Assembly (NCBI GenBank): GCA_025933855.1
Contig: JAICZD010000003.1
Coordinates: 1-36,512, forward strand
From: Modestobacter sp.
Lineage (GTDB): Bacteria; Actinomycetota; Actinomycetes; Mycobacteriales; Geodermatophilaceae
DNA: 36,512 bases
Direction of reading: 5' to 3'
Shown: piece by piece, positions 7,069 to 19,365 of the stretch
How positions within the stretch are numbered: position 1 is the stretch's first letter
How the letters are laid out: each line of letters starts with the position of its first letter
The notes under the pieces: model-generated
Told to the model about the DNA's origin: nothing
What the model saw: the letters and a program-made list of their open reading frames with translations, nothing else
Databases searched by the model: none
Made by a program: the position numbers and the translations under genes

Positions 7069-9109
<2,041 letters not shown>

Positions 9110-9113
<4 letters not shown>

Positions 9114-10045
9114 CGGGATCCTCCGAGGGGGACGGCGAGCGGGTCGGCGAGGTCGACGTCGGGCGTGGTGAAGCCGTTGGCCTCCAGCGCCTCCAGCAGC
9201 CGGGCCAGGGCGGGGGACCGGTCGTCGCAGCGCCAGGCGAGGGCCAGGTCGATGTGCACGTCGTCGGCGACCGGCACGTACCGGACGCCGTCCACCCGCA
9301 GGGCGAGGGCGGACTCGGGCAGCAGCGCCACGCCCAGACCGGCCGCGACGAGGGTGAGCATGGTGGAGGACTCGGCGGCCTGGTGGACCTGCCGCGGCGC
9401 GAAGCCGGCGCCGAGACATGCCTGGGTCACCACGGCGTTGACCGCGGAGTCCGCAGCGCTGTACAGGACGAAGCCCTCGTCGCGCAGCTCGGCCAGCCCG
9501 ACCGGCTCCTCCCCGGCCAGCCGGTGCCCCTGGCCCACGGCGAGCACCAGCCGCTCGCGGGAGACCAGCCGGGCGGACAGGCCGGTGCGGCGCAGCGGCG
9601 GGCGGAGCACGGCCAGGTCGATCCGGTCCTCCACCAGGGCGAGTTCCTGCGCCGGGGTGAGCAGGTCGGGCTGGAACCGCAGCACCAGGCCCGGCATCTC
9701 GCGGGCGGCGATCCGCGCCAGCCGGGGCACCTGGCGGAAGGCGGCGAGCCCGGTCGCCCCGACGCGGAGCAGACCGGTGCTGCCGGCGGCGACGAGCGTG
9801 ACCCGCCGCTGGGCGTCCTCGACGGAGGCAAGGATCCGCAGGGCGTCGCTGAGCAGCGACTCGCCCGCGGCGGTGAGCTCGACCCGGCGGGTGGTCCGGT
9901 CGAACAGCGTGGCCCCGACCTCACCCTCCAGCTGGCGGATCGCCTGGGACAGCGGCGACTGGGCCATGTGCAGCCGCTCGGCCGCTCGGCCGAAGTGCCG
10001 GGTCTGGGCGACGGCGACGAAGTAGCGCAGCTGACGGATCTCCAT
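9110..10045 (-). CDS. LysR-family transcriptional regulator, upstream of catB in the same orientation
   Basis: MEIRQLRYFVAVAQTRHFGRAAERLHMAQSPLSQAIRQLEGEVGATLFDRTTRRVELTAAG; 4-nt TTGA overlap with catB. Confidence 0.93.
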
Positions 10046-10310: not shown

Positions 10311-11693
10311 ATGTCTGCCGACCTGACGCACGTCCGCCAGGTTCTCTCCGACGCCGTCATCGACGACCCGGAGGCCGGGATCTACCGGGCCAACCGCCGG
10401 ATCTTCACCGACGAGGAGATCTTCGAGCTGGAGATGACGCACATCTTCGAGGGCAACTGGATCTACCTCGCGCACGAGAGCCAGCTGCCCAACCCGGGTG
10501 ACTACTTCACCACCTCGATCGGTCGCCAGCCGGTGGTGATCACCCGGGACCGCAACGGCGAGCTGCACTGCCTGATCAACGCCTGCGCCCACCGCGGCGC
10601 GATGCTGTGCCGCCGCAAGGTGGACAACCGGATGACCCTGACCTGCCCCTTCCACGGCTGGACGTTCCGCAACGACGGAACGCTGCTGAAGGTCAAGGAC
10701 CCCGAGGGGGCCGGCTACCCGGACAGCTTCGACCGGGACGGCTCGCACAACCTCACCGCGGTGGCCCGGTTCGACAGCTACCGGGGATTCCTGTTCGGCA
10801 GCCTCAACCCGGACGTGAGCTCGCTGGCCGACCACCTCGGCGACAGCACCAAGGTGATCGACATGCTCGTCGACCAGTCGCCGGAGGGCCTGGAGGTGCT
10901 CCGCGGCTCCTCCACCTACACCTACGACGGCAACTGGAAGGTGCAGGCGGAGAACGGCGCCGACGGGTACCACGTCAGCGCGACGCACTGGAACTACGCA
11001 GCGACCACCTCGCGGCGCAGCACCGGGGAGTCGGCCAACACCACCAAGGCGCTGGACGCCGGCGGCTGGGGCAAGTCCGGCGGCGGCTACTGGTCGTTCC
11101 CGAACGGCCACCTCTGCCTGTGGACCTGGGCGGCCAACCCGCAGGACCGGCCGCTGTGGGACCGGATGGACGAGCTCAAGGCGAAGTTCGGGGACGCCAA
11201 GGGCGAGTTCATGGTCAAGGGCTCCCGCAACCTCTGCCTCTACCCGAACGTCTACCTGATGGACCAGTTCAGCACCCAGATCCGGCACTTCCGCCCGATC
11301 GCGCCGGACCGGACCGAGGTCACCATCTACTGCATCGCGCCCAAGGGGGAGAGCGCCGAGGCCCGGGCGCACCGGATCCGCCAGTACGAGGACTTCTTCA
11401 ACGCCTCGGGCATGGCCACCCCGGACGACCTCGAGGAGTTCCGCTCCTGCCAGCTCACCTTCCGGGCCACCGCGGCACCGTGGAACGACATGAGCCGGGG
11501 TGCCGAGCACTGGCTGCACGGGCCGGACGAGGTCGCCGAAGCCCTCGGCATGGACGGCGTCATCTCCGCCGGGGTGCGCAACGAGGACGAGGGCCTCTTC
11601 CCCGTGCAGCACGGCTACTGGCTCGCCACGATGCGGGCCGCACTGGAGCGACAGGCCGGCACGGCCGCCGCGACCGCGACTTCGAAGGGCTGA
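10311..11693 (+). CDS. benA: Benzoate 1,2-dioxygenase large (alpha) subunit
   Basis: Rieske motif [55 protein letters not shown] upstream of ATG. Confidence 0.94.
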
Positions 11694-11699
11694 CCGGCG

Positions 11700-12275
11700 A
11701 TGACCACCACCCAGAGCGCCCCGCACACCACTCCGCAGACCGGCGCCCCGGCCGGACCCGGCCAGGCCGGATCGACCGGCGGCACGCTGATCACCCAGAA
11801 CGCGATCGAGCAGTTCCTCTACCGCGAGGCCCGCTACCTCGACGACCGCGAGTTCGAGAAGTGGCTGGACTGCTACGCGGACGACGTCGTCTTCTGGATG
11901 CCGGCCTGGGCCGACGACGACCGGCTCACCGAGGATCCCCAGCGCGACATCTCGCTGATCTACTACGGCAACAAGGGCGGGCTGCAGGACCGGATCTTCC
12001 GCATCCGGACCGAGCGCTCCAGCGCCACGTCACTGCCCGAACCCCGCACGAGCCACAACATCTCCAACGTCGAGGTCATCGAACGCCGGGGCGACCTGGT
12101 CGACATCCGGTTCAACTGGCACACCATGTACTTCCGGTACAAGACCGTGGACCCGTACTACGGGACGTCGTTCTACGTGATCGACTTCTCCGGGCCGTCG
12201 CCCCTCATCCGGCGCAAGACCGTGGTGCTGAAGAACGACTACATCCACCACGTCGTCGACGTCTACCACATCTGA
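11700..12275 (+). CDS. benB: Benzoate 1,2-dioxygenase small (beta) subunit
   Basis: EQFLYREARYLDDREFEKWLDCYADDVVFWMPAW...; immediately downstream of benA. Confidence 0.94.
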   Translation: MTTTQSAPHTTPQTGAPAGPGQAGSTGGTLITQNAIEQFLYREARYLDDREFEKWLDCYADDVVFWMPAWADDDRLTEDPQRDISLIYYGNKGGLQDRIFRIRTERSSATSLPEPRTSHNISNVEVIERRGDLVDIRFNWHTMYFRYKTVDPYYGTSFYVIDFSGPSPLIRRKTVVLKNDYIHHVVDVYHI

Positions 12276-12293: not shown

Positions 12294-15044
12294 ATGGACC
12301 ATCGTGTGGCACTCGCGTTCGAGGACGGCGTCACCCGGTTCATCACCTGCCGGGACGACCAGACCGTCGCCGACGCGTCCTACCGGGCGCGGATCAACAT
12401 CCCGCTGGACTGCCGGGACGGCGCCTGCGGAACCTGCAAGGCGCTGTGCGAGTCGGGGGACTTCGACGGCGGCAACTACCTGGAGGACGCGCTCTCGGCC
12501 GACGAGGCGGCGGACGGGTACGTGCTGCCCTGCAGCATGAAGCCCCGCTCGGACCTCGTGCTGCAGATCGCCACGACCTCGGCGGTCGCGAAGACCAGCG
12601 CCGGCACGCACCGCGGCACGGTGACCCGGCTGGACCGGCTCTCCCCGACCACGATGGGGCTGTCCGTCGAGATCGACGACCGCGACGCGCTGGCCTTCCT
12701 GCCCGGCCAGTACGTGAACATCGCCGTGCCGGGCACGGAGGAATCACGCTCCTACTCCTTCAGCAGCGCGCCGCAGGACAAGGAGCTGACCTTCCTGATC
12801 AAGCTGACGCCCGGCGGGGTGATGTCGGAGTACCTCGGGTCCCGCGCCGCCGTCGGTGACGAGATCACCTTCACCGGCCCGCACGGGAGCTTCTTCCTGC
12901 GCGAGTCCGACGCGCCGCTGATGCTGCTGGCCGGAGGCACCGGGCTGGCGCCGGTGCTGTCCATCCTGCGGACGCTGGAGGCCGGCGGCAGCACCCGGCA
13001 GATGCACCTGCTGTACGGCGTCACGACCGACGACGACCTGGTCGGGATGGACGACATCAAGCAGGTCGCCGACTCCCTCGAGGGGCTGACCTGGGACTAC
13101 TGCGTCGCCGACGAGGCGACGACGGCCCCCAACCACGGCTTCGTCACCGGCCTCATGGCACCCGAGCACCTGCACGGTGGGGACACCGCCGTGTACCTCT
13201 GCGGGCCACCGCCGATGGTGGAGGGGGTCCGCCGGCACATCGCCGGACTCGGCGTCACCCCGTCCGGCTTCTACTACGAGAAGTTCGCCCTCGCCGCACC
13301 CGAGGCCGCGGTCGAGGCCGAGCCGCAGGTCGATCTCGAGGTCGCTGCCGTGGCGCCGGAGCCCGCTCCCGAGGCACCGGCCCAGGCCGCCCCGGCCGAC
13401 GGCAGCGACCTCCGCACCCTGGCGGGCCGGGAGGGCCGGACGTCGGCCGGGCAGCTGCTGCTGCCCCCGGAGGAGCTGACCCCCTCCGGCGCCGGCGCGC
13501 CGGCGCGCCCCGCCGACCCGCCGGCCGAGATGCGGCGGCTGGCCGGCCAGGTGCTGGGACAGCCCGCCGGCACCGGCGAGGCCCTCCCGGTGGCCGACGC
13601 CGACGACCTGCTGCCCGCCGGCGGCGCCCGCTCGCTCGCCGGCCAGGAACTGTTCTCCGCATCGGCGCTGGAGCCGCTCACCGCGCCGGCCCCGGAGGTG
13701 CCGGCGGACCGGCCCCGGCCCGCGGCGGCCGCCGAGGGCTTCGAGATCACGGCCGACGGCTACCAGATCGGGGAGGAGCACCCCTCCGTGCACGAGTCCG
13801 ATGCCATCTTCGACGCCCGCCGGGCGCTGGAGCTGGGGGCTCTCGAGCTCACGATCGGGCGGCTGACCCACCACCAGCTGGTGGGTTACCGGCTGCTCGC
13901 CGAGGCGACGGTGCCCTACGTCGAGGGCGACAGGTTCGTCGACGCGGCCGCCTACACCGAGACCAACGCCGCCTTCCACGACTACCTGTTCACCCTCACC
14001 GGCAACGAGCACCTGCTCCGCGCCTACCAGGCGCTGGGCGTCAAGGGGCACATGGAGGACTCGCTGCGGACGGCGACCTGGGTCCACCCGCGGTGCGCCC
14101 AGGACCACCTCGACATCGTCACGGCCTTCACCGACGGCGACCGCGAGCGCGCCCGCACCCTGGTCGTGGAGCACGCCGAACGGTCCAAGGAGACCACCCG
14201 ACGGGCCATGGCCGACAGAACCAGGGCCGACCAGGCCACGGCCGGCCGGCCGCGCTTCCTCAGCCCCGGGCGCTTCGACGGCAAGGTCGTGGTCGTCACC
14301 GGAGCCGCGCAGGGCATCGGCCGGGCGGTGGCCGAGCGGATCTCCGCCGAGGGTGGCCGCGTCGTCCTCCTGGACCGGTCCCCGCTGGTGCACGAGGTCG
14401 CCGACGGGCTGCTCGCCGCGGACCGGCCGGCGCTGCGGCTGGAGGCGGACCTGGAGGACTACGCCTCCGCCGACGCCGCACTCCGGGAGGCGCAGGCCTG
14501 GCACGGCCGGATCGACGTCCTGGTCAACAACGTCGGAGGGGCGATCAACTTCAAGCCGTACGTCGAGTTCACCGAGGCCGAGATCGCCGCGGAGATCAAC
14601 CGGTCGCTGATGCCCGCGCTGTGGTGCTGCCGGGCGGTCCTGCCCGGCATGGTGGCCCGCGGTGGCGGCGTGATCGTCAACGTGTCGTCGGCGGCCACGC
14701 GCGGCATCCACCGGGTGCCCTACTCCGCGGCCAAGGGCGGCATCAACGCGCTCACCGCCTCGCTGGCCCTGGAGTACGCCGGCGCCGGGATCCGCGTCGT
14801 CGCCACCGCTCCCGGCGGGACCGAGGCGCCGGCGCGGCGGATCTCCCGCGGAACCCCGGAGCCGCGTACCGAGCAGGAGCGGGCATGGTTCCAGGCGCAC
14901 ATCGACCAGACGCTCGGGTCCTCGCTGATGGGCCGCTACGGCACGCTGGAGGAGCAGGCGGCCGCCATCGCCTTCCTGGCGTCGGACGAGGCCTCCTACG
15001 TGACCGGAACCGTGCTGCCGGTGGCCGGCGGCGATCCGGGCTGA
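12294..15044 (+). CDS. Fusion: benzoate dioxygenase reductase (BenC) + linker + FCD domain + dihydroxycyclohexadiene carboxylate dehydrogenase (BenD)
   Basis: Uninterrupted 916-aa frame: 2Fe-2S LDCRDGACGTCK, FAD site ESRSYSFSS, NAD site LLAGGTGLAPVLSIL; FCD-like NAAFHDYLFTLTGNEHLL...DHLDIVTAFTDGDRERARTLVVEHAE; SDR VVVVTGAAQGIGRAVAE, VNNVGG, YSAAKGG. Confidence 0.88.
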   Translation: MDHRVALAFEDGVTRFITCRDDQTVADASYRARINIPLDCRDGACGTCKALCESGDFDGGNYLEDALSADEAADGYVLPCSMKPRSDLVLQIATTSAVAKTSAGTHRGTVTRLDRLSPTTMGLSVEIDDRDALAFLPGQYVNIAVPGTEESRSYSFSSAPQDKELTFLIKLTPGGVMSEYLGSRAAVGDEITFTGPHGSFFLRESDAPLMLLAGGTGLAPVLSILRTLEAGGSTRQMHLLYGVTTDDDLVGMDDIKQVADSLEGLTWDYCVADEATTAPNHGFVTGLMAPEHLHGGDTAVYLCGPPPMVEGVRRHIAGLGVTPSGFYYEKFALAAPEAAVEAEPQVDLEVAAVAPEPAPEAPAQAAPADGSDLRTLAGREGRTSAGQLLLPPEELTPSGAGAPARPADPPAEMRRLAGQVLGQPAGTGEALPVADADDLLPAGGARSLAGQELFSASALEPLTAPAPEVPADRPRPAAAAEGFEITADGYQIGEEHPSVHESDAIFDARRALELGALELTIGRLTHHQLVGYRLLAEATVPYVEGDRFVDAAAYTETNAAFHDYLFTLTGNEHLLRAYQALGVKGHMEDSLRTATWVHPRCAQDHLDIVTAFTDGDRERARTLVVEHAERSKETTRRAMADRTRADQATAGRPRFLSPGRFDGKVVVVTGAAQGIGRAVAERISAEGGRVVLLDRSPLVHEVADGLLAADRPALRLEADLEDYASADAALREAQAWHGRIDVLVNNVGGAINFKPYVEFTEAEIAAEINRSLMPALWCCRAVLPGMVARGGGVIVNVSSAATRGIHRVPYSAAKGGINALTASLALEYAGAGIRVVATAPGGTEAPARRISRGTPEPRTEQERAWFQAHIDQTLGSSLMGRYGTLEEQAAAIAFLASDEASYVTGTVLPVAGGDPG

Positions 15045-15048
15045 CCGC

Positions 15049-17829
15049 GTGCGGTCCGCGTCCCCGCGCCCGCTCATCCCGACCTACGGTCGGACCGTGA
15101 CCTCGGGGGACGACGACGTCCACGTCGTGGGGCAGGCCGCGGAGGCCGCGCGGCTGGACGCACTGCTCACCCGGGCCGGTGCCGGGCGAGCCGTGATGGC
15201 GCTGGTCGAGGGGCCGGCCGGGGTCGGCAAGACCATGCTGCTGCGACGGTTCCTCCGCCGGAACCCCGGGCTGCAGGTGTCCTCGGCGGCCGGGCTGGCG
15301 TGGGAGAGCCGTCGGGCGGGCGCGCTCGCGCTGCGGCTGCTCGAGGACGACGGCGACGGTGCCCCGCCGTCGACGACCGGCACCGATCCCGCGGACCTGG
15401 GCATCGAGCTCGCCGGGCGGTGGGCGGCCCGGACAGCGGAGGGGCAGCTGCTGGTCGCGGTCGACGACGCGCACTCCGCCGATCCGACGTCCCTGCGCGC
15501 GATCACGTCCGCGGCCGCCCGCAGCTGCGGCGCCGGGACCCTGCTGCTGCTCGTCCGGACCACCGGATGGCCGCCCGCGGGGGACCCCGAGGCCGTGGAC
15601 CTGCTCGACCGGCTGCCCGCCGTGCACGTCCGGGTGCCCGCCCTGGGACCGGAGGACACCCGGCTGCTGGCGGCGCGGATGGCGGCCGTCGACCTGCCGC
15701 TGCCGGTCGCCCGCCGGCTGTGCGAGCACGCCGCCGGGATCCCGCGCCACCTGCTGGAGATCCTCCGCGACACCTCACCGGCCCGGTTGTCGGACTGGCA
15801 GAGCCGGCTGCCCGCCCCGGGGTCGGTGCAGCACCGGGTCCAGCGGGCGCTCAGCGACTGCTGCCCGGCGACCCGGGCCCTGGTCGAGGCGGCGGCCGTG
15901 CTGGGGCCGACCCCGGTGCTCGCCGAGGCCGTGGCGCTGGGGGACGTTCCGGATCCGATCGCCGCGCTGGAGGAGGCCTGTGCGGCCGGGCTCCTCGCCC
16001 CCGGAGCCGGGCACGGCCTGGACGCGCTGGCCTTTCCCGGGCGGTTCGTCCGCGACGCCGTGCACGCCACCCTCGGTCCGCGTCGGCGTCACGACCTCCA
16101 CCTGCAGGCGGCGGCCGTGGTTCCCGACGAGACCCAACGGCTGCGTCACCGGGTCGAGGCGGCACCGCTGCCCGACGCCCGGCTCGCCGAGGAACTGGTG
16201 CAGCTGGCGCACCGCAAGGCCGACGAGGGCGCGTGGGCCGTGGTCGCGGGTGCGCTGATCGACGCCAGCCGGATCAGCCCCAGCCGGGTCGAGCGCGAGG
16301 ACCGCCTGATCGAGGCCGTCGACGCGCTGGCCGGCGCCGGGCTGCTCGGCCAGGCCGTCGACGCCATCGCCGACGTGGAGGCGCTGCCCTCCGGACCCCG
16401 GCGGGACGCCGTCCTGGCCTACATCGCCATCCAGCGCGGCCGGCGGGCCGAGGCCGCTTCCTACCTGGACGCGGCCTGGCGCCGCCGGGGGTCGGACCGG
16501 GATGCCGCCGCCGTCGTCTGCCAACGCCAGGTGCTGCACGCCCTCGCCGACTGGAACGGCGGTGAGCTGCTGCGGTGGGCCGGCCGCGCGGTGGAGCACG
16601 CCGAGCCCGGCGCGCCGGCCGCGGTCGAGTCACGGGCGATCATCGGGCTGGGCCATGCCGCCTGCGGTCACCTCGACGAGGCCTTCACCGCCTACCGCCA
16701 CGCCGTGGCCGAGAGCCCGTCCGGGCCGCAGCACCAACGCGCCCGGATGGGACTGGGCTGGCTGTACCTGGCGCAGGACGATCCCGAGGCGGCCCGGCGG
16801 GAGCTGGAGTACGCCGCTCCCACCGCGCGGCAGTCCGGCTCCAACCGGGTGTCGCTGTGGGCCCTGGCGTGGCTGGCCCGCACCCGCTTCGTGCTGGGGG
16901 ACTGGCTCGGCGCGCTGCAGGCGGTGGACCAGGCGGAGCTGCTGCTCGGCGCGACCGGGCTGGACCTGCTGCGGCCCCTCGTGCACTGGACCGGTGCCCA
17001 GATCCGGGCGCTGCGCGGGGAGCAGGAGGCCGCGGACGGCCACCTGTACGCCGGTGCCGCCGCGGAGCACGACTACACGGTCATGACCGTTCCGGCGCTC
17101 CTCGCCCGGGCGCAGGTCGCCGAGTCCCGCGGGGACCACCACGCCGTCGTCCGGCACCTCGCGCCGCTCGCCGTCCGCCCGTTCCGCGCCGGCCTGGACG
17201 AGCCCGGCTTCTGGCCCTGGCACGACGTCTACGCCAACGCCCTGGTCCTGGGCCACCGCCTGGCCGAGGCCGAGGCGTTCCTCGAGCCGCTCGAGCAGAC
17301 GGCCCGGGCCCGGGGACATCGATCGACCCGCGCCCGGCTCGGCGTGGTGCGGGGCCGGCTGCTGGCGGCGCGCGGGGACATGGCAGGCGCCGAGGAGGCA
17401 CTCGGCCGGGCGCGGGCCGAGCTCGCCGCGCTGCCGGTTCCGTACGAGCAGGCCCGGGTCGACCTCGCCCTCGGGCTCACCCTGCGCCGGGCCGGCCGCC
17501 GACGGGATGCGACGGAGATGCTCACCACGGCCCGCTCGGCCTTCGCGGCACTCGGCGCGCAGGTCGACGTCGACCGTTGCGACCGGGAACTGAAGGCCGG
17601 CCGGCCGGCGCACGGCGGTGGCCCGCCCGCCGCGGACACCCTCACCGAGCAGGAGCGGAGCGTCGCCTCGCTGGTGGCCACGGGGATGGCCAACAAGGAG
17701 GTCGCCGGCGCGATGATGCTGTCGGTCAAGACGGTCCAGTTCCACCTGACCCGGGTCTACGCCAAGCTCGGTGTCCGGTCCCGGTCGGAGCTGGCGGCGC
17801 GCTTCGCCCGCCGCCCCGCCGACCAGTGA
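15049..17829 (+). CDS. LAL-type LuxR-family ATP-binding transcriptional regulator (BenR-like by position)
   Basis: N-terminal P-loop VEGPAGVGKTMLLRRF; C-terminal HTH LTEQERSVASLVATGMANKEVAGAMMLSVKTVQFHLTRVYAKLGVRSRSEL; start GTG 15049 or GTG 15097. Confidence 0.85.
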   Translation: MRSASPRPLIPTYGRTVTSGDDDVHVVGQAAEAARLDALLTRAGAGRAVMALVEGPAGVGKTMLLRRFLRRNPGLQVSSAAGLAWESRRAGALALRLLEDDGDGAPPSTTGTDPADLGIELAGRWAARTAEGQLLVAVDDAHSADPTSLRAITSAAARSCGAGTLLLLVRTTGWPPAGDPEAVDLLDRLPAVHVRVPALGPEDTRLLAARMAAVDLPLPVARRLCEHAAGIPRHLLEILRDTSPARLSDWQSRLPAPGSVQHRVQRALSDCCPATRALVEAAAVLGPTPVLAEAVALGDVPDPIAALEEACAAGLLAPGAGHGLDALAFPGRFVRDAVHATLGPRRRHDLHLQAAAVVPDETQRLRHRVEAAPLPDARLAEELVQLAHRKADEGAWAVVAGALIDASRISPSRVEREDRLIEAVDALAGAGLLGQAVDAIADVEALPSGPRRDAVLAYIAIQRGRRAEAASYLDAAWRRRGSDRDAAAVVCQRQVLHALADWNGGELLRWAGRAVEHAEPGAPAAVESRAIIGLGHAACGHLDEAFTAYRHAVAESPSGPQHQRARMGLGWLYLAQDDPEAARRELEYAAPTARQSGSNRVSLWALAWLARTRFVLGDWLGALQAVDQAELLLGATGLDLLRPLVHWTGAQIRALRGEQEAADGHLYAGAAAEHDYTVMTVPALLARAQVAESRGDHHAVVRHLAPLAVRPFRAGLDEPGFWPWHDVYANALVLGHRLAEAEAFLEPLEQTARARGHRSTRARLGVVRGRLLAARGDMAGAEEALGRARAELAALPVPYEQARVDLALGLTLRRAGRRRDATEMLTTARSAFAALGAQVDVDRCDRELKAGRPAHGGGPPAADTLTEQERSVASLVATGMANKEVAGAMMLSVKTVQFHLTRVYAKLGVRSRSELAARFARRPADQ

Positions 17830-18090: not shown

Positions 18091-19365
18091 GTGAGTCGGG
18101 AAACCCCGATGAAGCCGATGAAGTGCGACATCCTCATCTCGGGTGCGAGCATTGCCGGGCCGACCCTGGCGTACTGGCTGTCTCGATATGGGTTCAGGGC
18201 CATAGTGGTCGAGCGCACGCCGGCGCTTCGCGCCGGGCTCGGCGGTCACGCCGTGGACCTGTTGGGGCCGGCGGTCGACGTGGCGGAGTGGATGGGCATC
18301 CTTCCGCAGGTCATGGCCGCCCGTACCGGCACGGACGTGATCAGCATCGAGCGTCCCGGCCGGTCTCCCGTCGTCGTCGACGTCGGTCGGGCGGTGACCG
18401 GAATCGCCTCCCGGCATGTCGAGATCATGCGCGGCGAGCTGACGTCGATCATGTACGAGGCAACCAGGGACGACGTCGAATACGTCTTCGGTGACTCGAT
18501 CCGCACCCTCGACGACGACGGCGACCGAGTCGCGGTCACCTTCGAGCACGGGCCCGCGCGTGACGTCGACCTGGTGGTCGGCGCCGACGGGTTGCACTCG
18601 AACGTGCGCCGATTGACCTTCGGTGACGAGTCCCGGTTCCGCCATTACCTGGGCGGCTATCTCGGCGTGTACACGCTGCCGAACTACCTCGGACTCGACG
18701 GGCGGATGGTCATGCACCACAGTCCCGGCAAGTTCGTCGCGATGTATCCGGTCCGCCAGACCGGTGCTGCCCGGGCGCTGTTCCTGTTCCGGCGGGCGGA
18801 GGAGCTGCACTACGACCACCGGGACATCGAGCAGCAGAAGCGGTTGCTCCGGCAGGCGTTCGCCGAGGACGGCTGGGAAGCACCACGCATCCTCGCCGAA
18901 CTCGACGAAGCCCCGGATCTCTACTTCGACTCGATCAGCCAGATCCGCATGGAGTCCTGGTCGCGCGGGCGCGTGACCCTTGTCGGCGACGCGGGATACT
19001 GCCCCGCTCCCGCGGTCGGCGGTGGAACGGCCGTCGCGGTGCTGGGCGCATACGTCCTCGCCGGCGAGCTTCGCGCGGCGGGTGGCGATCACACCACGGC
19101 GTTCCCCATCTACGAACAACAGTTGCGGCGCTTGGTCGCTCGTACCCGCGCCCTCGCCCCGACGATGATGAAGACCCTCATCCCCCGCAGCCGGCGGCAG
19201 GTGTGGGCGACCACCCAGGCAATGCGGGTGCTGCCGCACCTACCGGCGACGGTTCAACGTGGACTTTCCTCCTTCGTCAGGGCACCCGCCCGGGCGCTGG
19301 CATCCGTCGACATGAACCGGTACGGGGCCGCCAAGGCCGCCTCTGAAGAGCCCACGGCGCAATGA
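18091..19365 (+). CDS. FAD-dependent monooxygenase (aromatic hydroxylase-like)
   Basis: ILISGASIAGPTLAYWLSRYGFRAIVVER, DLVVGADGLHSNVR, VTLVGDAGYCPAPAVGGGTAVA; start GTG 18091 or ATG 18109/18118. Confidence 0.88.
   Translation: MSRETPMKPMKCDILISGASIAGPTLAYWLSRYGFRAIVVERTPALRAGLGGHAVDLLGPAVDVAEWMGILPQVMAARTGTDVISIERPGRSPVVVDVGRAVTGIASRHVEIMRGELTSIMYEATRDDVEYVFGDSIRTLDDDGDRVAVTFEHGPARDVDLVVGADGLHSNVRRLTFGDESRFRHYLGGYLGVYTLPNYLGLDGRMVMHHSPGKFVAMYPVRQTGAARALFLFRRAEELHYDHRDIEQQKRLLRQAFAEDGWEAPRILAELDEAPDLYFDSISQIRMESWSRGRVTLVGDAGYCPAPAVGGGTAVAVLGAYVLAGELRAAGGDHTTAFPIYEQQLRRLVARTRALAPTMMKTLIPRSRRQVWATTQAMRVLPHLPATVQRGLSSFVRAPARALASVDMNRYGAAKAASEEPTAQ

Follow-up and report, generated by a model that had tools for sequence, protein, structure and literature searches.

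Proteobacterial BenC (about 340 aa) and BenD (about 260 aa) are separate proteins, with neither an FCD domain nor a repeat linker. In a draft genome of Modestobacter sp., the same catalytic modules, in the same operon role, lie in one frame around a linker and an FCD domain. We asked whether this frame is a genuine gene, how it arose, and what the inserted segments may contribute. The stretch of DNA analysed, hereafter the window, comprises 36,512 nucleotides (GCA_025933855.1, contig JAICZD010000003.1), and all coordinates refer to it.

The fusion gene and its neighbourhood

The genes around the frame are as follows:

7072..7905, minus strand: catA, catechol 1,2-dioxygenase (actinobacterial equivalog above cut-off)
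8019..9107, minus strand: muconate cycloisomerase family protein in the catB position (profile search)
9110..10045, minus strand: LysR-type regulator, divergent from benA (Pfam, NCBIfam)
10311..11693, plus strand: benA, benzoate 1,2-dioxygenase large subunit (Pfam, NCBIfam)
11700..12275, plus strand: benB, benzoate 1,2-dioxygenase small subunit (Pfam, NCBIfam)
12294..15044, plus strand: benC-linker-FCD-benD fusion gene, 916 aa (ORF, Pfam, NCBIfam, related loci)
15049..17829, plus strand: large LuxR-type regulator (AAA, TPR-like, GerE HTH), start codon uncertain

The order is benA, benB and fused benCD, with benAB directly upstream of the fusion gene and the LuxR-type gene directly 3' of it. 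A finished Tsukamurella plasmid (NZ_LR134459.1) has the same gene order, and its fused gene is annotated just "benC". Separately, the FAD-dependent monooxygenase at 18091-19365 reached 283 bits with tetracycline destructase models, below their cut-off of 550, and is probably an ordinary flavin hydroxylase.

The fusion gene was read as 916 codons in one frame without interruption, and it divides into four parts:

12294..13298, plus strand: BenC reductase module (Fer2, FAD- and NAD-binding), residues 1-335, with C40, C45, C48 and C80
13299..13763, plus strand: linker, residues 336-490 (155 residues), mostly of low confidence in the AlphaFold model
13803..14243, plus strand: all-helical FCD domain, residues ~504-650 (Pfam, residue conservation, fold search)
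14271..15041, plus strand: BenD short-chain dehydrogenase module, residues 660-916, with SDR motifs present

Pfam profiles matched in the order Fer2 (residues 10-84), FAD_binding_6 (109-200), NAD_binding_1 (211-313), FCD (505-629) and then adh_short (664-848) or adh_short_C2 (670-913). The BenC and BenD identities given in the initial annotation hold under the NCBIfam equivalog models: NF040810 (BenC) scored 468 bits against a cut-off of 430 over residues 3-332 (model 1-331 of 333), and NF040811 (BenD) scored 410 bits against 380 over residues 660-916 (model 1-256 of 256). The reductase module is 44% identical to the benzoate dioxygenase reductase of known structure (1krh). Several functional positions are invariant in 81 fused sequences, namely the cluster cysteines C40, C45, C48 and C80, the FAD and NAD sites R152-S153-Y154-S155 and G214-G215-T216-G217, the BenD motif TGxxxGIG (T669-G670...G674-I675-G676) and the catalytic residues S798/S799 and Y810-x3-K814. 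From family membership we infer both enzyme activities.

The fused frame in relatives and in the literature

The source genome is a draft in 307 contigs, 70% complete, and the BenD part of the gene has a phylogenetic affinity unlike the rest, as might be seen if the frame were a product of sequencing or assembly error or a pseudogene. We consider such an artefact extremely improbable. The initial annotation had named 14200-14280 as the place where a stop or indel could separate benC from benD, and none is there. All cofactor and catalytic residues are intact in the window protein, and the flanks of the BenD part (benABC-FCD on one side, the downstream LuxR gene on the other) both score best against Geodermatophilaceae. 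BenC, FCD and BenD lie in the same single frame in 80 of the 80 best related loci from other genomes, so a frameshift or other artefact was rejected. Fused frames on finished replicons include the complete chromosome of Amycolatopsis sp. 2-2 and the Tsukamurella plasmid.

The 80 relatives came from a scan with one genome per species; because they were chosen as the best matches, the set is biased towards full-length architecture. They were 60-72% identical in the top segment, with matches spanning essentially the entire length, and represented over 15 actinobacterial genera. These genera were Geodermatophilus, Blastococcus, Pseudonocardia, Amycolatopsis, Prauserella, Saccharopolyspora, Mycobacterium/Mycolicibacterium, Gordonia, Skermania, Williamsia, Nocardia, Aldersonia, Antrihabitans, Nocardioides, Kribbella, Kitasatospora and Flexivirga. 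In a less biased search with the BenC model, using a frame length of at least 858 aa as a proxy for fusion (checked on a sample), 77 of 133 BenC frames in 401 sampled genomes of one large family reached this length. In a second family none of the 23 BenC frames exceeded 676 aa.

The fusion is thus real and well conserved, and its architecture was already known. It was reported in silico in 2019 for Gordonia alkanivorans YC-RL2 (PMC6362181); the accessible text of that report gives the same domains, a benABCD operon and LysR and LuxR regulators, without linker motifs, a phyletic survey, a metal-site analysis or a mechanism. The corresponding locus of G. alkanivorans NBRC 16433 falls within the fused clade described below. 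A figure legend for Rhodococcus ruber Chol-4 calls benC a ferredoxin reductase component/diol dehydrogenase (PMC6498646); in the accessible part of that paper a further benD stands beside benC, and the FCD domain and linker are not described. The genome survey and PMC6362181 together reject uniqueness of the fusion to this window, since it forms one clade over many genera.

A second, likewise conserved kind of fusion was also observed. In several genomes of one genus, a BenC/AntC-like reductase is joined to a FAD-monooxygenase-like domain in proteins of 854-932 aa (L094:4804-7575, L097:5327-7921, L099, L100 and L101; frame and domain search). We rejected these as cases of the BenC-FCD-BenD fusion, as they carry the FAD-monooxygenase-like domain instead.

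Origin of the fusion and exchange of the BenD module

In a BenC tree (fast search with SH-aLRT support, without bootstrap), 87 fused sequences and two de-fused sequences formed one clade with SH-aLRT 99, and the window protein, in its single frame, lies inside it. The fused clade adjoins BenC-FCD lineages. Unfused relatives have BenC alone or BenC-linker-FCD, with benD separate. The initial annotation had noted that some actinobacterial BenC proteins are longer, and BenC-FCD with a separate benD is indeed common in other actinobacterial genera. At five unfused loci (L104, L105, L109, L123 and L130) the stop of benC-FCD and the start of benD overlap by four bases (ATGA); among the junctions inspected, some have GTGA instead, including both de-fused cases. 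With such an overlap, a small frame change would be enough for fusion. The tree gives a single origin of the fusion, from lineages that had BenC-FCD and a separate, overlapping benD. Since the fused clade adjoins BenC-FCD lineages, acquisition of the FCD domain would most simply predate the fusion to BenD.

Score comparison and a BenD tree revealed a segment of different affinity in the window gene:

14211..15041, plus strand: Pseudonocardia-like BenD segment (score comparison and tree)

BenA, BenB, BenC, FCD and the downstream LuxR protein have their best scores against Geodermatophilaceae, and the window gene outside the BenD module is Geodermatophilus-like. From residue ~640-660 onward, BenD clusters instead with the sequences of Pseudonocardia oceani and P. 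kujensis (SH-aLRT 99), with 82-83% identity to those Pseudonocardia against a comparison value of about 61%. The window gene is a mosaic. Because both flanks agree on Geodermatophilaceae, we favour a swap of the BenD module inside the fused gene over a chimera introduced during assembly. Among fused sequences, the BenD types VGGT and VGGA changed four times on the BenC tree.

The FCD domain retains a metal-site pattern

The FCD domain (PF07729) passed the Pfam gathering cut-off with 52.6 bits against 24.3 (E 7.8e-14). No GntR winged-helix model matched in the 916-aa protein, which places it outside the GntR/FadR regulators and bears out the initial description of an FCD domain without a winged helix. 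In a fold search with a model that included the disordered linker, the matches listed from the PDB were GntR-family regulators or FCD domains (DhdR, PdhR, VanR, TM0439 and LldR), with probability 1.00 and a best E of only about 1e-3. The helical fold and a histidine triad are common to the window FCD and LldR, TM0439, DhdR and VanR; the window FCD differs from these GntR/FadR-type proteins in lacking the winged helix, in its setting within a metabolic enzyme and in an Asp to Asn change. For the fusion together with its FCD domain, a search of the open-access literature found nothing relevant.

The metal-binding histidines are 148, 196 and 218 in LldR and 134, 174 and 196 in TM0439 (PMC4746285), and those of the window FCD correspond to them. 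The metal-site pattern Asp/Asn-x3-His ... His-x21-His is present as N558-x3-H562 ... H605-x21-H627, with Asn558 in the aspartate position in all members. These four residues are invariant in 87 fused sequences, as are the pocket residues R509 and E513, and the four are also kept in 27 unfused sequences except for one gap at H627. Given such invariance, in fused and unfused proteins alike, the FCD probably still functions as a metal-dependent domain that binds carboxylates; Asn558 may weaken metal binding.

Alternatively, the FCD could be kept purely as a structural spacer or dimerisation module that senses no ligand. The loss of the winged helix and the replacement of the metal aspartate by Asn would fit this, as would the dispensability of the domain, given that some actinobacteria (L108, L117, L132 and L137) keep a complete benABCD cluster without it. 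However, a mere spacer would not be expected to retain a buried histidine triad, and the conservation just described, in fused and unfused sequences, makes this explanation rather unlikely. We favour a binding domain; the allosteric sensor proposed in the initial annotation is plausible, and the conserved metal-site residues favour ligand binding without naming the ligand.

The linker carries three evenly spaced motifs

No Pfam family matched the linker, even with E relaxed to 5, and we rejected the presence of a known domain. The initial annotation was right that a Pro/Ala-rich linker is present, but it overlooked three conserved motif repeats, as it did the exchanged BenD module:

13434..13463, plus strand: repeat motif 1, GRTSAGQLLL, residues 381-390 (linker profile, DNA repeat)
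13530..13559, plus strand: repeat motif 2, MRRLAGQVLG, residues 413-422, 96 nt after motif 1
13626..13655, plus strand: repeat motif 3, ARSLAGQELF, residues 445-454, 96 nt after motif 2

The consensus is A/G-R-x-[ILV]-A-G-Q-x-hydrophobic-F/L. Counted with a leave-one-out profile in 81 linkers, the motif occurred three times in 65, twice in 14, once in one and four times in one; the same profile gave four single matches in 405 shuffled linkers. Median spacings across linkers were 30 and 32 residues, and the window has exactly 32 and 32.

Clustered copies appear to be confined to the ben linker. The strict motif R-x-[ILV]-A-G-Q occurs 14 times genome-wide in the source genome versus 13 in a control, with clustering only in the ben linker, so we rejected it as a feature of the genome at large. 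Across the loci retrieved, every other protein frame had at most one match. Of 42 unfused loci, 40 lacked the motif; the set also included the fused controls L128 and L129. The two exceptions (L095 and L127) encode de-fused BenC without FCD and a separate BenD, and their tail is ARCIAGQLVF followed by five residues. These come from related species (BenC 88% identical), so retention of the motif could be inheritance. Linkers of unfused BenC-FCD proteins are ~40-70 residues in most cases and longer in one genus.

A different repeat was seen in six unfused BenC-FCD proteins of one genus with a long Pro/Ala linker, in a neighbouring part of the BenC tree (L119, L120 and L149-L152). These carry the motif ARP-x-G-[YFHL] three times, at intervals of 28-32 residues. 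We found no earlier report of either repeat in the open-access literature, and the triple-motif linker appears to be a new, testable part of the system.

One could regard the linker as a flexible tether and its repeats as the trace of an early duplication within Ala/Gly/Pro-rich sequence, without any role in binding. It is disordered in the model and variable between motifs, and in the window the repeats show as a 96-nt DNA repeat. However, the motif Arg, Gly and Gln stay fixed across genera while everything else drifts, the spacing holds at ~30 residues across genera, and 144 strict motifs were observed in the 81 linkers versus 0.03 in shuffles. We think a simple tether unlikely.

A second possibility is that the motifs bind FCD or BenD in cis, in which case they would serve to arrange the fusion protein and not to dock a partner. 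They come with the fusion, are absent from short-linker BenC-FCD proteins, and, although weakly ordered in models (pLDDT about 50-70), are somewhat more ordered in the linker and FCD model than in the full-length one. Speaking against binding in cis, L095 and L127 keep a terminal ARCIAGQLVF although they lack an FCD and their BenD is separate, and we doubt this explanation to much the same degree as the tether. We prefer to read the motifs as candidate docking peptides for a partner.

A proposed mechanism

On balance we lean towards a bifunctional, NADH-recycling reductase-dehydrogenase with a metal- and ligand-binding FCD and docking peptides in its linker, for which BenAB would be the best guess as partner. 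No experimental work on any fusion member was found in the open-access literature. What the analysis establishes is the architecture, the family membership, the conservation, the single origin and the repetition and spacing of the motifs; the NADH loop, the ligand binding and the docking partner are inferred. The N-terminal BenC module would take electrons from NADH and deliver them to BenAB, a separate oxygenase that forms the benzoate cis-diol, and the C-terminal BenD module would oxidise the cis-diol to catechol and give back one NADH. BenC spends one NADH for each ring dihydroxylation, and BenD yields one for each diol oxidised; having the NADH-using and NADH-making steps in one polypeptide would fix their ratio at 1:1. 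The local NADH/NAD+ recycling suggested in the initial annotation is plausible; NADH is freely diffusible, so the fusion need not bring real channelling. There is a demonstrated example of an SDR, TsaC, returning NADH to a Rieske oxygenase (PMC10579966).

The FCD most likely binds a metal and an aromatic acid, either benzoate or the corresponding diol acid, tuning or assembling the enzyme, and from its place between linker and BenD it could gate either activity. Oxygenases of the BenAB family are trimers of heterodimers. The three evenly spaced R-x-[ILV]-A-G-Q motifs are most likely repeated docking peptides, with trimeric BenAB as the putative partner; their number and fixed spacing suggest multivalent binding, and a docking linker would hold the mobile reductase near its oxygenase. 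By analogy, CsoS2-type scaffolds are disordered and carry short motifs in several copies, through which docking to an oligomeric enzyme has been proposed; in the window the repeats lie inside an enzyme, docking is putative, and we claim no sequence relation. More speculatively, a trivalent linker on trimeric BenAB might assemble a ligand-gated oxygenase/reductase/dehydrogenase metabolon with the FCD as its switch, and the other motif of the sister lineage might act likewise; we consider this unlikely.

If the proposed mechanism is true, a widespread aromatic-acid pathway of soil bacteria would rest on a single-chain enzyme found in nature that gives NADH back to its Rieske oxygenase, senses its own substrate via a domain borrowed from a regulator and docks its partner via repeated peptides. 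It would offer a ready design for biocatalysis with Rieske oxygenases, whose use is limited by the supply of NADH and by the pairing with a reductase, and the role of orphan FCD domains would become directly testable.
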